Shown here in pieces: positions 9,970 to 14,649 of a DNA stretch of 18,474 nt; positions within the stretch are counted from its first letter, which is position 1, and each line of letters opens with the position of its first letter. Position numbers and translations under genes: made by a program. This stretch comes from an uncultured Roseburia sp. (lineage in GTDB: Bacteria; Bacillota; Clostridia; Lachnospirales; Lachnospiraceae), in NCBI GenBank assembly GCA_945928585.1, contig CAMENQ010000008.1, positions 1-18,474 on the forward strand. Direction: 5' to 3'. The notes under the pieces were generated by a model, which did no database searches, had not been told where the DNA came from, and saw only the letters and a program-made list of their open reading frames with translations.

Positions 9970-9996
9970 TTAGCACTCATACTTGACGAGTGCTAA
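9970..9996 (+). promoter_or_regulatory. CIRCE operator (HrcA binding site) of clpB
   Basis: TTAGCACTC, nine bases, GAGTGCTAA: a perfect match to the CIRCE consensus, the site of the heat-shock repressor HrcA. The right arm overlaps the clpB -35 region, so bound HrcA would block the promoter. Flanking bases extend the dyad by a few pairs. Confidence 0.97.
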
Positions 9997-10216: not shown

Positions 10217-12805
10217 ATGAACATTAACAAATTTACACAAAAGTCAATGGAAGCAGTGTCGGACTGTGAGAAGCTGGCGTACCAATATGGGAACCAGGAA
10301 ATAGAGCAGGAACATCTTTTGAAGGCACTTACAGACCAGGAGGATGGCCTTATTATAAAGCTTATAGAAAAGATGGAGATAGACACGAATCATTTTAAAA
10401 ACAGAGTGGAGGATTATCTTAATAAGCGTGTAAAGGTACAGGGAGGTCAGGTATATATAGGAAATGACCTGAATAAAGTACTTATTACCGCAGAGGATGA
10501 GGCGAAGGCTATGGGAGACTCTTATGTTTCCGTAGAGCATTTGTTTTTGTCTCTGTTAAAATATCCTAATCAGGGTGTTAAAGCATTATTTAAGGAATAC
10601 GGCATTACAAGGGAAAGATTTTTACAGGCACTGTCCACAGTAAGAGGAAACCAGACAGTAACAAGTGACAATCCTGAGGCCACTTATGATACACTTGTAA
10701 AATACGGCACCGACCTTGTAGAAAAAGCACGAAATCAAAAACTTGACCCTGTTATTGGCAGAGATAGCGAAATAAGAAACGTAATACAGATACTTTCACG
10801 TAAAACTAAAAACAATCCTGTACTTATAGGTGAGCCCGGTGTAGGTAAGACTGCGGCAGTAGAAGGTCTGGCACAGCGTATTGTGGCAGGCGATGTACCG
10901 GCAGGCTTAAAGGACAAAAAGATATTTGCACTTGATATGGCATCACTGGTAGCAGGAGCCAAGTACAGAGGAGAGTTTGAGGAAAGACTTAAGGCTGTTC
11001 TTGAAGAAGTGAAGAAAAGCGAAGGACAGATTATTCTGTTTATAGATGAGCTTCATACCATAGTAGGAGCAGGAAAGACAGAAGGCTCTATGGATGCGGG
11101 AAATATGCTTAAGCCTATGCTTGCAAGAGGCGAGCTTCACTGTATAGGAGCAACTACACTTGACGAATACAGAAAATATATAGAAAAGGATCCGGCACTT
11201 GAGCGTCGTTTCCAGCCTGTACTTGTTGATGAGCCAAGCGTGGAGGATACTATTTCCATACTTAGGGGACTTAAGGAAAGATATGAGGTATTTCATGGCG
11301 TAAAAATCACGGATTCAGCTCTTGTATCTGCAGCAGTCCTTTCAAACAGATATATTTCTGACAGATTTCTTCCTGACAAGGCAATAGACCTGGTAGATGA
11401 AGCATGTGCCCTTATAAAGACAGAGCTTGATTCTATGCCTGTAGAACTTGATGAACTGAGACGTAAGGTTATGCAAATGGAAATAGAGGAGGCTGCACTT
11501 AAGAAAGAAACAGATAAATTAAGTACAGCCAGACTTGAGACACTGCAAAAGGATTTGGCAGAGCTTAAGGAAGAATTTAACAATAAAAAGGCACAGTGGG
11601 AAAATGAAAAGACATCTGTGGAAAGATTAAATAAGCTTCGTGAGGAAATAGAAAATATAAGAGGCGAAATTAAAAAGGCAGAGAGAGAATACGATTTGGA
11701 AAAGGTTGCAGAGCTGCAGTACGGCAGACTGCCAGCCATGGAAAAACAACTTTGGCAGGAGGAAGAAAAGATTAAAAGTGCTGATTTATCCCTTCTTCAC
11801 CAAAATGTATCAGAGGAGGAGATTGCACGTATTATATCACGCTGGACAGGTATACCTGTATCTAAGCTTACTGAATCAGAAAGAAATAAAACACTTCATC
11901 TTGACGAAGCACTTCATAAACGTGTTATCGGACAGGAGGAGGGCGTAAGCAAGGTAACAGAGGCTATTATACGTTCAAAGGCAGGTATAAAAGACCCGTC
12001 AAAGCCTATAGGTTCGTTTTTATTCCTTGGCCCTACAGGCGTAGGAAAGACAGAACTTGCAAAGTCCCTTGCTGAAAATCTGTTTGACAATGAGCAGAAT
12101 ATGGTCAGAATAGATATGTCCGAGTATATGGAGAAACATTCCGTAGCCAGACTTATAGGAGCACCTCCGGGATATGTAGGATATGATGAAGGCGGACAGC
12201 TTACAGAGGCAGTAAGGAGAAAGCCGTATTCAGTAGTTCTTTTTGATGAAATCGAAAAGGCACATCCTGATGTATTTAATGTGCTGCTGCAGGTGCTTGA
12301 TGACGGAAGAATAACAGACTCACAGGGCAGGACAGTAGACTTTAAGAATACCATTATTATTCTTACTTCAAACATAGGTTCATCTTATCTGCTGGATGGC
12401 ATTGATGAACAGGGAAACATTAAGGCCGAAAGTGAAAATATGGTTATGAGTGAGCTTAAGAATGCATTCAGACCGGAGTTTTTAAACAGACTTGATGAAA
12501 TAATTATGTTTAAGCCGCTTACAAAGGAAAATATCGGCGGAATAGTAGATTTACAGCTTGCTGACATTAATAAGCGACTGGTGGAGAAGGATATTACCAT
12601 AGCCATTACAGACAGAGCAAAGAACTTTATTATAGAAAACGGTTATGAGCCTTCCTACGGAGCAAGACCACTTAAGAGGTATCTGCAGAAGCATGTGGAG
12701 ACACTGGCTGCGAAGGTAATCCTTTCAGACGGAGTGGCAGCAGGAGATACTATACTGGTGGACGAGAAAGACGGAGAACTGACGGCGGAGATTGTTCAGG
12801 GGTAA
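10217..12805 (+). CDS. clpB: ClpB, ATP-dependent disaggregase
   Basis: A hexameric Hsp100 chaperone that pulls polypeptides out of aggregates together with DnaK. All domains are present in the 862 residues: the N-terminal Clp repeat domain (about 1-145), AAA-1 with Walker A GEPGVGKT (about 205-212) and Walker [10 protein letters not shown], a Lys/Glu-rich coiled-coil middle domain (about 400-520) that marks ClpB rather than ClpA or ClpC, and AAA-2 with Walker A GPTGVGKT (about 605-612), [14 protein letters not shown] and the sensor-2 motif GARPLKR. It lacks the IGF-type loop that would recruit ClpP as far as I can see. GAGGT lies 7 bases before the ATG. Control is by HrcA through CIRCE about 220 bases upstream, with a terminator in the leader. 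The 3' end is partly duplicated at 13877-13940, beyond the next gene. Confidence 0.97.
12709..12772 (+). repeat. Left member of a 64-bp direct repeat: 3' end of clpB
   Basis: Within clpB, encoding [21 protein letters not shown]. It matches 13877-13940 at 57 of 64 bases, including a 30-base identical core from TTCAGACGG to GATACTAT. The offset between copies is 1168 bases. Confidence 0.95.
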
Positions 12806-12834
12806 ATTTTGGGAAGATAGCAAAATAATGGTAA

Positions 12835-12870
12835 TTGGGGCGGTAGTTGGGGCTACTGCCCCAACTTTTT
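12835..12870 (+). terminator. Intrinsic terminator of clpB
   Basis: TTGGGGCGGTAG pairs with CTACTGCCCCAA (12 bp, one G-T pair, loop TTGGGG) and is followed by C and five T. It lies about 30 bases after the clpB stop. A shorter alternative stem, GTTGGGG/CCCCAAC, is also possible. Confidence 0.9.
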
Positions 12871-12953
12871 AGATGATTTGCCAAAACGGTGAAGGAAGAT
12901 AAGTTATAATGATGAAAGTTGTAGTTTTATGATAAGTTATATTGGAATAATTA

Positions 12954-12982
12954 TTGTAAGTTGGGATATTATGTGTTAGTAT
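12954..12982 (+). promoter_or_regulatory. Possible weak promoter of the Rpn-like gene
   Basis: TTGTAA (12954-12959), 17 bases and TAGTAT (12977-12982), each 4 of 6 to consensus. Position is sensible: after the clpB terminator and about 45 bases before the TTG start. In an AT-rich gap such matches arise by chance, so this is tentative. Confidence 0.3.
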
Positions 12983-13025
12983 GAACATAGGAAAATATAT
13001 AAAAAGGGGCAGGTGAAATATATAA

Positions 13026-13814
13026 TTGAGTAAGGCTGATAATAAGCATAAAGAACTTTTAGAGAAAATCAAAGAGTTTCGCTTGATGGATGATGATTTT
13101 ATGAGCAAGGTTTTTGAAGATAATTTTGAATGTATTGAGTTAATCTTACATATTATAATGCAAAAGCCTGATTTAAAAGTAAAAGAAGCTCGTACACAAT
13201 ATAGCATAAAAAATCTTTTGGGGCGTTCTGTAAGATTGGATATATATGCAGTCGATAATATAGGTAAAAAATATAACATTGAGGTGCAGAGGGCAGATAA
13301 AGGAGCAGGTACAAAGAGGGCAAGATATAACAGTAGTGTTATAGAGACTAATTCGTTAGCACCGGGTTCAAAATTTGAGGATTTACCGGAAACATATGTT
13401 ATATTTATTACTGAAAACGATGTTATGGGTGCCAATGAACCAATTTATCATATAGATAGAATTGTAAGAGAAACAGGTCAGATATTTGATGATGAAACAC
13501 ATATTATTTACGTAAATGGATCATATATAGATGATTCGCCACTAGGATTACTTATGCATGATTTTTCGTGCAAGAATCCAAATGATATGCATTATAAGTT
13601 GTTGGCGGAAAAAACCAGATATTTTAAGGAAGATGAGAAAGGAGTGGCAGCCATGTGTAAGATAATGGAAGATCTAATTGATAGTGAAAAAAGAGAAAGT
13701 GCTTTGAGATTATTAAAGATTGGAAAACTTTCAAATGAAGAAATTGCAGAAGGGCTGGGACTTACTATTGAAGTGGTCAATGCTCTTGAAGTTGAAAGTA
13801 AATCGTTAGGTTGA
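13026..13814 (+). CDS. Rpn-family recombination-promoting nuclease / PD-(D/E)XK 'putative transposase'
   Basis: A 262-residue protein of the PDDEXK_2 (Rpn/YhgA-like) family. The LMDDDFMSKVFEDN start is typical. The nuclease core shows VRLDIYAVDN (Asp72) followed by YNIEVQRAD (Glu86, Gln88), the D...ExQ form of the PD-(D/E)XK site. A C-terminal helix-turn-helix-like segment, LSNEEIAEGLGLTIEVVNALE (about 237-257), is also common in this family. E. coli Rpn proteins are DNA endonucleases that raise RecA-independent recombination in vivo; some relatives have been linked to phage defence. The TTG start is chosen from AGGTG (13011-13015) upstream and the fit of the N-terminus. The gene sits between two copies of the clpB 3' end and lacks terminal inverted repeats or a DDE transposase, so it is not a standard insertion sequence. 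Family call is firm; the cellular role is open. Confidence 0.85.
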   Translation: MSKADNKHKELLEKIKEFRLMDDDFMSKVFEDNFECIELILHIIMQKPDLKVKEARTQYSIKNLLGRSVRLDIYAVDNIGKKYNIEVQRADKGAGTKRARYNSSVIETNSLAPGSKFEDLPETYVIFITENDVMGANEPIYHIDRIVRETGQIFDDETHIIYVNGSYIDDSPLGLLMHDFSCKNPNDMHYKLLAEKTRYFKEDEKGVAAMCKIMEDLIDSEKRESALRLLKIGKLSNEEIAEGLGLTIEVVNALEVESKSLG

Positions 13815-14104
13815 TTATACTCGTATATAAAATGTACAATGATAGAAGAGTAGCAGCAAGAATAATGTGCAACTAATGCGAAAGTAATTCATTCAGACGG
13901 AGTGGCAGCAGGAGATACTATTTTGGTGGGTGAGAAAGACTTATGAGAAACAAAAGGAGTATGTGTAAGGAAAAATAGTGTTTCAATTTGTGGTAATTGT
14001 TATCGCAGTAAAATGATGCTTGAATGGATATACGGCGCAATTGATAATTATATTTGTAAGAATGTGAACTGATGTGTGAAGCTTTTATGTAAATAGTTAA
14101 TATG
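13815..14104. other. Gene-poor stretch with the clpB remnant
   Basis: The gap after the Rpn-like gene (290 bases) holds the 64-bp clpB-like fragment and otherwise AT-rich sequence. A short open frame at about 13945-14071 encodes a Cys-containing peptide (CGNCYRSKMMLEWIYG) but has no in-frame start ahead of the Cys residues and no ribosome site; it may be debris of a lost gene. No terminator follows the Rpn-like gene until 14105. Confidence 0.6.
13877..13940 (+). repeat. Right member of the 64-bp direct repeat: diverged fragment of a clpB 3' end
   Basis: It reads [21 protein letters not shown] in frame, then Leu and a stop. Of six changed codons relative to clpB, four are silent (AAG/AAA, ATC/ATT, ATA/ATT, CTG/TTG) and two change the residue (L to H, D to G). 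The reading frame starts after a TAA at 13863, so this is not a gene. Confidence 0.95.
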
Positions 14105-14147
14105 TGGTCTTCTGTGATAAAAATATAATCACAGGAGGCCATTTTTT
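14105..14147 (+). terminator. Strong intrinsic terminator upstream of the metal-resistance unit
   Basis: Arms at 14105-14118 and 14128-14141 pair over 14 bp (two G-T pairs), with a loop of nine A/T bases and six T at 14142-14147. It ends just before the -35 of the next promoter and insulates the cad-like genes from upstream transcription. Confidence 0.92.
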
Positions 14148-14148
14148 G

Positions 14149-14176
14149 TTGACATATCCATAATATAGTATATAAT
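14149..14176 (+). promoter_or_regulatory. Sigma-A promoter of the metal-resistance unit
   Basis: A consensus TTGACA (14149-14154), a 16-base spacer and a consensus TATAAT (14171-14176). The T-tract of the preceding terminator lies directly upstream and could act as an UP-like A/T element. Confidence 0.88.
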
Positions 14177-14186
14177 ATAATTAAAC

Positions 14187-14206
14187 ATATGAACAGTTGC
14201 TCATAT
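14187..14206 (+). promoter_or_regulatory. Probable CadC/ArsR-family operator
   Basis: ATATGA, eight bases, TCATAT, with further partial symmetry inside (ATATGAACA against TATGAGCA on the other strand). It lies just downstream of the -10, near the expected transcription start. This matches the ATATGAACA-type dyads bound by CadC, CzrA and SmtB relatives, so the regulator encoded next probably represses itself and the pump. Confidence 0.8.
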
Positions 14207-14268
14207 ATTGTAGAGAATAAATTAAAAAAAGATAAATAAAGAAAAAAATAAAAAAGGAGGAACAAATC

Positions 14269-14649
14269 TTGCAGAAACCAATAAATCCACACAGAAATAA
14301 TGACGTTGAACACTGTGATGTAGAATGTGTTCACGAAGACATAGTAAAAAAAGTAAACAGCCTTCTGCCTGAGGAGGAAATACTATATGACCTTGCAGAA
14401 TTTTACAAGGTATTTGCCGACTCTACAAGAATAAAAATGCTTTACATTTTATTGGAATCAGAAATGTGTGTCTGCGACATAAGCCGTATACTTGGCGTAA
14501 GCCAGTCTGCCGTATCCCATCAGCTTCGCATGCTTAAGCAGATGAAACTTGTAAAATACAGGCGGGAAGGAAAAACAGTGTATTATTCCCTGTCAGACCA
14601 TCACATAGAACAGATACTCAGTCAGGGACTTGAGCATATATCTGAGTAA
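14269..14649 (+). CDS. CadC-like ArsR/SmtB-family metal-responsive repressor
   Basis: A 126-residue winged-helix repressor expected to leave DNA when Cd, Pb, Zn or a similar ion binds. The N-terminal CDVEC (Cys16, Cys20) and MCVCD (Cys67, Cys69) reproduce the four-Cys alpha-3N site of staphylococcal CadC. SDHHIEQ...LEHISE gives Asp110, His112, His123 and Glu126, the same 2-11-3 spacing as the alpha-5 Zn site of CadC. The recognition helix is in ISRILGVSQSAVSHQLRMLKQ. The start is TTG, chosen because AAAAAGGAGG (14251-14260) stands 8 bases before it and no ATG fits. It is the first gene of a three-gene unit with an HMA protein and a P1B ATPase, and its own operator candidate is at 14187. The effector is inferred from site type. 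Confidence 0.92.
   Translation: MQKPINPHRNNDVEHCDVECVHEDIVKKVNSLLPEEEILYDLAEFYKVFADSTRIKMLYILLESEMCVCDISRILGVSQSAVSHQLRMLKQMKLVKYRREGKTVYYSLSDHHIEQILSQGLEHISE

Follow-up and report, generated by a model that had tools for sequence, protein, structure and literature searches.

We analysed an 18,474-nucleotide (nt) stretch of DNA from an uncultured Roseburia sp. (contig CAMENQ010000008.1, hereafter the window), in which an Rpn-type nuclease gene lies between the 3' end of clpB and a second, diverged copy of part of that end. We put a probability of roughly 0.6 on the reading that an RpnL/RpnS cassette was acquired next to clpB and that illegitimate recombination at 13876/13877 left the far 64-bp piece behind as a dead, partial duplicate. 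In this mechanism, a gene-within-gene toxin-antitoxin cassette of the anti-phage type would have been acquired downstream of clpB in a Roseburia-like lineage. The far copy would have arisen either by a tandem duplication that spanned the clpB end and rpn, with a later deletion (route A), or by template switching during joining (route B), which we consider the likeliest routes, and both clpB-end copies would have diverged after the duplication. The acquisition of the rpn gene and the kind of recombination event are what we infer from the observations below.

The clpB gene (10217-12805, + strand) is intact, encodes 862 amino acids (aa), and matches the AAA_2, Clp_N, and ClpB_D2-small profiles. 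A repeat search found its positions 12709-12772 (+) again at 13877-13940 (+), with 57 of 64 nucleotides identical (89%), a spacing of 1168, and a longest exact run of 30 bases. The gapped local alignment of clpB against the downstream DNA scored 52, whereas 200 shuffles reached at most 25. The far copy is in the clpB reading frame and differs in six codons, four of them silently; in the other two, a Leu of the near copy is replaced by His and an Asp by Gly. All of this agrees with an earlier sequence-only reading of the window, which had reported the recurrence, its spacing, its frame, and the silent changes. In the comparisons made, the flanks of the two copies showed no likeness beyond the 64 bases above shuffled levels, and the rpn gene (13026-13814) is the sole gene between them. 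The assembly (369 contigs, 84% complete) was searched with clpB 12674-12806, which returned the two known copies only. A second clpB gene was considered as the source of the repeat and rejected, with two DNA copies only in the assembly and another Clp ATPase just 42-56% identical over its pieces; the unrelated second clpB that the sequence-only reading had named as evidence against itself was not found in this assembly.

Of the two copies, the one upstream is clpB's true end, as indicated by the repeat search, the local alignment, and the comparison of tails. It runs on into an L-x-A tail, which is found in 29 of the 37 relatives' ends, and has a terminator-like site behind it (12835-12864); the far copy ends as GEKDL without such a tail. 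Compared with relatives, both amino-acid replacements fall on the far copy: its His stands where 28 relatives have Leu and two have Ile (30 of 30 Leu or Ile), and its Gly stands at a codon for Asp in 26 of 29 and for Gly in one. Given the 57/64 identity and the His substitution, the far copy is judged to be a dead, truncated clpB fragment, presumably non-functional. No polarity emerges from the four silent differences. In the 30 relatives, the base of the far copy prevails at 12721 and 12754 and that of the near copy at 12755, with almost equal counts at 12715; at 12763, the last position of the Asp/Gly codon, the far base is again the more frequent.

The gene between the copies (13026-13814, +; 262 aa, TTG start assumed) belongs to the PD-(D/E)XK nuclease family. 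Its product matches PDDEXK_2 (PF12784) with an E-value of 1.3e-10 and 41.9 bits (cut-off 27.4), and reaches 50.2 bits against TIGR01784, "Rpn family recombination-promoting nuclease/putative transposase", just below the cut-off of 52.1. The earlier naming of an Rpn-like nuclease was therefore upheld, with the second profile slightly under its threshold. The genome has no match to PF04754, the family given for the Rpn proteins of E. coli. Residues D72, E86, and Q88, which we take to be the catalytic residues of the PD-(D/E)XK fold, do not vary among the 21 sequences selected for the alignment, nor does M210 (21 of 21), and the C-terminal part of the alignment has a 4-residue indel. An in-frame ATG at 13653 follows 8 nt after an internal Shine-Dalgarno (SD) sequence, AAAGGAG (13638-13644, +). 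This internal second start with its SD therefore predicts, besides RpnL, a 53-aa RpnS (13653-13814, +) as an intragenic antitoxin, which would be made here and would block RpnL.

The internal start was surveyed in 94 rpn genes (that of the window, 33 from other loci, and 60 fetched), from which three that did not align there and two duplicates were removed, leaving 89. The homologous codon is a start codon in 88 of these 89 distinct genes, including that of the window (ATG in 84, GTG in three, and TTG in one), and TGA in the remaining one. An SD match of at least 5 nt for the start there was present in 86 of 89 genes (one start lies three codons away). Of 336 control ATGs, in frame and elsewhere inside the genes, 5 had such a match; at 6 nt or more, the counts were 66 of 89 and 1 of 336. 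Read by eye, the residues encoded around the SD vary among genes (for example KEG, EKG, and EGG), and the SD nucleotides thus appear to be conserved for themselves. The 53-aa RpnS used as a query resulted in 24 proteins from 24 candidates, 42-86 aa long, of which 13 begin at the equivalent Met, although some of these may come from full-length genes that are broken or cut by a contig end.

The distribution of rpn is patchy, with a match in 173 of 299 family genomes, and the GC content of the gene is 0.326 vs 0.412 for clpB. Two Rpn proteins (P0001 and P0008), each listed on 11 contigs, are 95-96% identical to that of the window. Carriage of rpn by phages or plasmids was examined and rejected: the phage collection gave six unannotated faecal records at 47-60% identity (five over at least 80% of the gene), plasmids gave two records at 29-30%, and an IMG/VR pattern scan gave none. 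The same genome holds a second PF12784 gene close to a contig end (G000:C194:4385-4930). At another locus (L201; G152:C13:48626-49393 and 49492-50259), two rpn genes stand in direct tandem, which fits published tandem-duplication arrays.

The joint was located by searching 145 genomes with window DNA 12806-14268, which resulted in 38 genomes with some match, the window's own included. The best non-self match (G003:C230, a contig of a genus mate and identical to CALWLV010000230.1) is 82% identical over window positions 13654-13875. The common stretch takes in the RpnS part with some 60 bp of 3' flank and ends just before the clpB scrap at 13877; beyond 13875, G003 differs from the window. From this one comparison, 13815-13876 (+) is the probable native 3' flank of rpn, and 13876/13877 is likely a recombination joint where the cassette lost further native flank. 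The G003 match itself (L060, 1346-1507, - strand) is an orphan, RpnS-like frame of 53 aa that stands alone and has an SD and a GTG start of its own. It lies behind AAA_21 ATPase and RloB genes and near an insertion-sequence (IS)-type transposase frame (named by eye), and is possibly a free-standing antitoxin in a defence-gene setting.

Two points weigh against the partial duplication. If all changes had fallen neutrally on the far copy, at least four silent changes in six would have P 0.017-0.03, and this excess mildly favours a second piece that once coded for protein; the argument loses force because silent changes accumulate in a functional near copy as well. In addition, 13941-14268 contains no trace of another rpn copy, which would have suited the tandem-duplication version.

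From the silent changes, the sequence-only reading had suggested that the second piece came from another clpB allele: an incoming clpB 3' end with rpn would have replaced the resident end and pushed the old one to the far side. The in-frame far copy, its silent excess, and the sharp end of similarity at the joint suit such a displacement. The argument from the silent changes is suggestive, but it is weakened by the unpolarised sites and by the silent changes expected in the near copy. Against a displaced end stand the missing L-x-A tail and a His unseen in 30 relatives, and a later deletion of the remaining old end would also be required. We searched for a donor with ClpB residues 816-862 against 5.8 billion proteins clustered at 90%, which resulted in 7770 matches among 7963 scored candidates; the best 120 were listed and four sequences were read. 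Among these best 120 of 7770, the window's own ClpB (one member, three contigs) matched at 100% and the others at 80% over the compared stretch. None showed an allele with an end like the far copy, although clustering at 90% may hide alleles, as a cluster representative can carry another tail. We consider the displaced allele unlikely.

For the partial duplication, the possibility of an assembly artefact was also weighed. Two strain versions of the clpB end could have been joined in a fragmented metagenome bin, and both the state of the assembly and the 7 differences in 64 bases are compatible with such a chimera. However, the flanks of the copies differ, exact sharing does not exceed 30 bases, and an identical ClpB protein is listed on three contigs, which does not show the arrangement beyond clpB. 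A chimera is very improbable.

The clpB loci of relatives were surveyed in 61 genomes, the window's own included. A Clp ATPase match was present in 60 of them, and a near-full-length ClpB at 64% identity or more in 41, again counting the own genome. ClpB of the window shares 90% aa identity with the genus mate G001 and 82% with G002; in G003, clpB is split over two contigs. When the window was compared by blastn with the clpB contigs of G001, G002, and G003, clpB appeared once, with no rpn and no second clpB piece. The DNA downstream of clpB was taken from the other 38 relatives, of which one (L128) was too short, and the remaining 37 were scored over 372 to 13,980 bases each. None of the 37 carried a repeat of the clpB tail, the best score being 19 vs 50 in the window, so the clpB end is not a place where duplications recur in this set.

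Long, imperfect direct repeats at gene 3' ends resemble attachment (att) sites, and the sequence-only reading had likened the layout at clpB to these. The clpB 3' end might then have served an integrative element as its att site, the integrase having been lost afterwards. The 37 scored relatives speak against recurrent use of this end by a site-specific integrative element, and no IMG/VR contig had the 29-base pattern taken from the exact shared run. No integrase was spotted by eye among the open reading frames of the window, for which no profile search of all frames was made. We regard an att site as highly improbable.

The sequence-only reading had further proposed that the nuclease cassette may have inserted itself, or been inserted, as a minimal mobile unit with no integrase, and named other Rpn genes flanked by duplicated host-gene ends as possible support. 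A transposon or insertion sequence would have defined ends and a target duplication. None of the four inverted-repeat pairs reported for 12600-14300 brackets rpn as terminal inverted repeats. For direct repeats, the score threshold was set at 40 or more. The first sample comprised 39 loci (38 and the window), 34 of which were scored over 2 kb; seven reached the threshold, one of them (L099) as an artefact of a run of Ns. Over 1 kb, 36 loci were given, 31 were scored, and five reached the threshold, the window included, against 0 of 311 same-locus windows and 2 of 619 clpB-downstream windows.

The signal was lost on replication. Replication set 1 (60 given, 57 scored, two duplicates dropped) resulted in 0 of 55 loci vs 17 of 703 control windows, seven of the 17 coming from one locus. 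Replication set 2 (40 given, 37 scored, duplicates with earlier sets unchecked) resulted in 2 of 37 vs 13 of 427. Together, 2 of 92 rpn loci had flanking repeats vs 30 of 1130 control windows, which overlap one another and are not gene-centred. By eye, the two hits look like a palindromic repeat and a terminator. On these results, the candidate rule that rpn genes are in general bracketed by duplicated gene ends was rejected. Pooling all sets without the window gives 6 of 122 vs 32 of 2060 (P 0.017), which is carried by the discovery sample and which we do not claim.

The view of Rpn, or its unit, as an element that inserts itself and creates long target duplications can draw on the first sample, on the pooled figure, and on the increase of RecA-independent recombination by overexpressed Rpn in E. 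coli (PMC5350276). With flanking repeats at control level in replication, self-insertion is not supported and seems very unlikely. A related idea is that Rpn cleavage began the capture of its own gene, in that nuclease-made 3'-OH ends primed template switching and gave a templated copy of the neighbour gene's end. PMC5350276 describes that Rpn cleavage products can give priming sites and could enable joining by template switching, which makes a role of the nuclease conceivable; nothing here shows it, and we hold it to be highly doubtful. If true, Rpn-primed capture would make the cassette a minimal unit able to spread with neither an integrase nor transposase ends. The overall interpretation in the sequence-only reading is partly supported, by the Rpn assignment, the patchy distribution, and a likely joint; the displaced end and the pattern of flanked rpn genes are not supported.

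Individual loci of the first sample showed repeats of different kinds. At L075 (116-2647), rpn and a RES-domain gene are bracketed by a repeat, 211 columns long with 203 identical, that consists of a gene's 3' end; the gene was named by eye as a serine recombinase. The repeat at L090 is DNA downstream of another serine recombinase gene. At L068 (5893-12158), rpn and GNAT acetyltransferase genes immediately precede a frame of 1354 aa, named by eye as Cas9-like, and the GNAT 3' end with a terminator-like hairpin is duplicated ahead of rpn, which appears in the 2-kb test only. The repeat at L081 is a piece that we take to be IS66-like, and that at L085 is a terminator-like stretch.

Other features of the window concern regulation. 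Upstream of clpB, an inverted repeat at 9970-9996 (+; TTAGCACTC-N9-GAGTGCTAA) has 0 mismatches to the consensus, with 0 occurrences in 200 shuffles; we take it to be the controlling inverted repeat of chaperone expression (CIRCE), the HrcA operator. This perfect operator suggests that clpB may be under HrcA control. A consensus scan found a terminator-like site 3' of clpB (12835-12864, +; 13-bp stem and then a T-run). It missed a second terminator-like hairpin at 14104-14148 (+; 15-bp stem and T-run), ahead of an ArsR-type gene (named by eye), where folding of 14095-14155 gave -25.9 kcal/mol and a z of -7.25. An Rfam search returned nothing at gathering score.

The literature search recognised no paper on repeats flanking rpn genes except PMC10327210, which reports rpn genes without terminal repeats or target duplications. 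The closest case of acquisition is rpnC (yadD) of Enterobacteriaceae, for which two introductions between panC and panD were suggested (PMC5350276). Both cases have one rpn gene, probably acquired in the window, between housekeeping genes. They differ in that the passages of PMC5350276 consulted mention no duplicated host-gene end, whereas the window has one; among the relatives examined, clpB is not used as a site repeatedly. The clpB scrap alone is a scar of little consequence.

The RpnL/RpnS systems (COG5464/TIGR01784) are the nearest relatives in design. According to PMC10327210, E. coli RpnS blocks RpnL, RpnS is also synthesised from a Clostridioides difficile gene, and stand-alone rpnS genes occur. 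The window gene shares with them a PD-(D/E)XK-family N-terminal part and a variable C-terminal part that has a separate internal SD and start, together with short stand-alone RpnS relatives and a patchy distribution, and its 4-residue C-terminal indel resembles the repeat variation described there. It differs in matching PF12784 and not PF04754, and in the clpB fragment that abuts its 3' flank; its activity and RpnS synthesis are predictions. The apparent orphan in G003 may be a free-standing immunity gene. The genes covered are mostly gut-bacterial and often annotated as transposases, and our finding argues that such names mislead. A start and an SD at the RpnS position (88 and 86 of 89) in nearly every rpn gene examined from the PF12784 branch extend the published gene-within-gene design.

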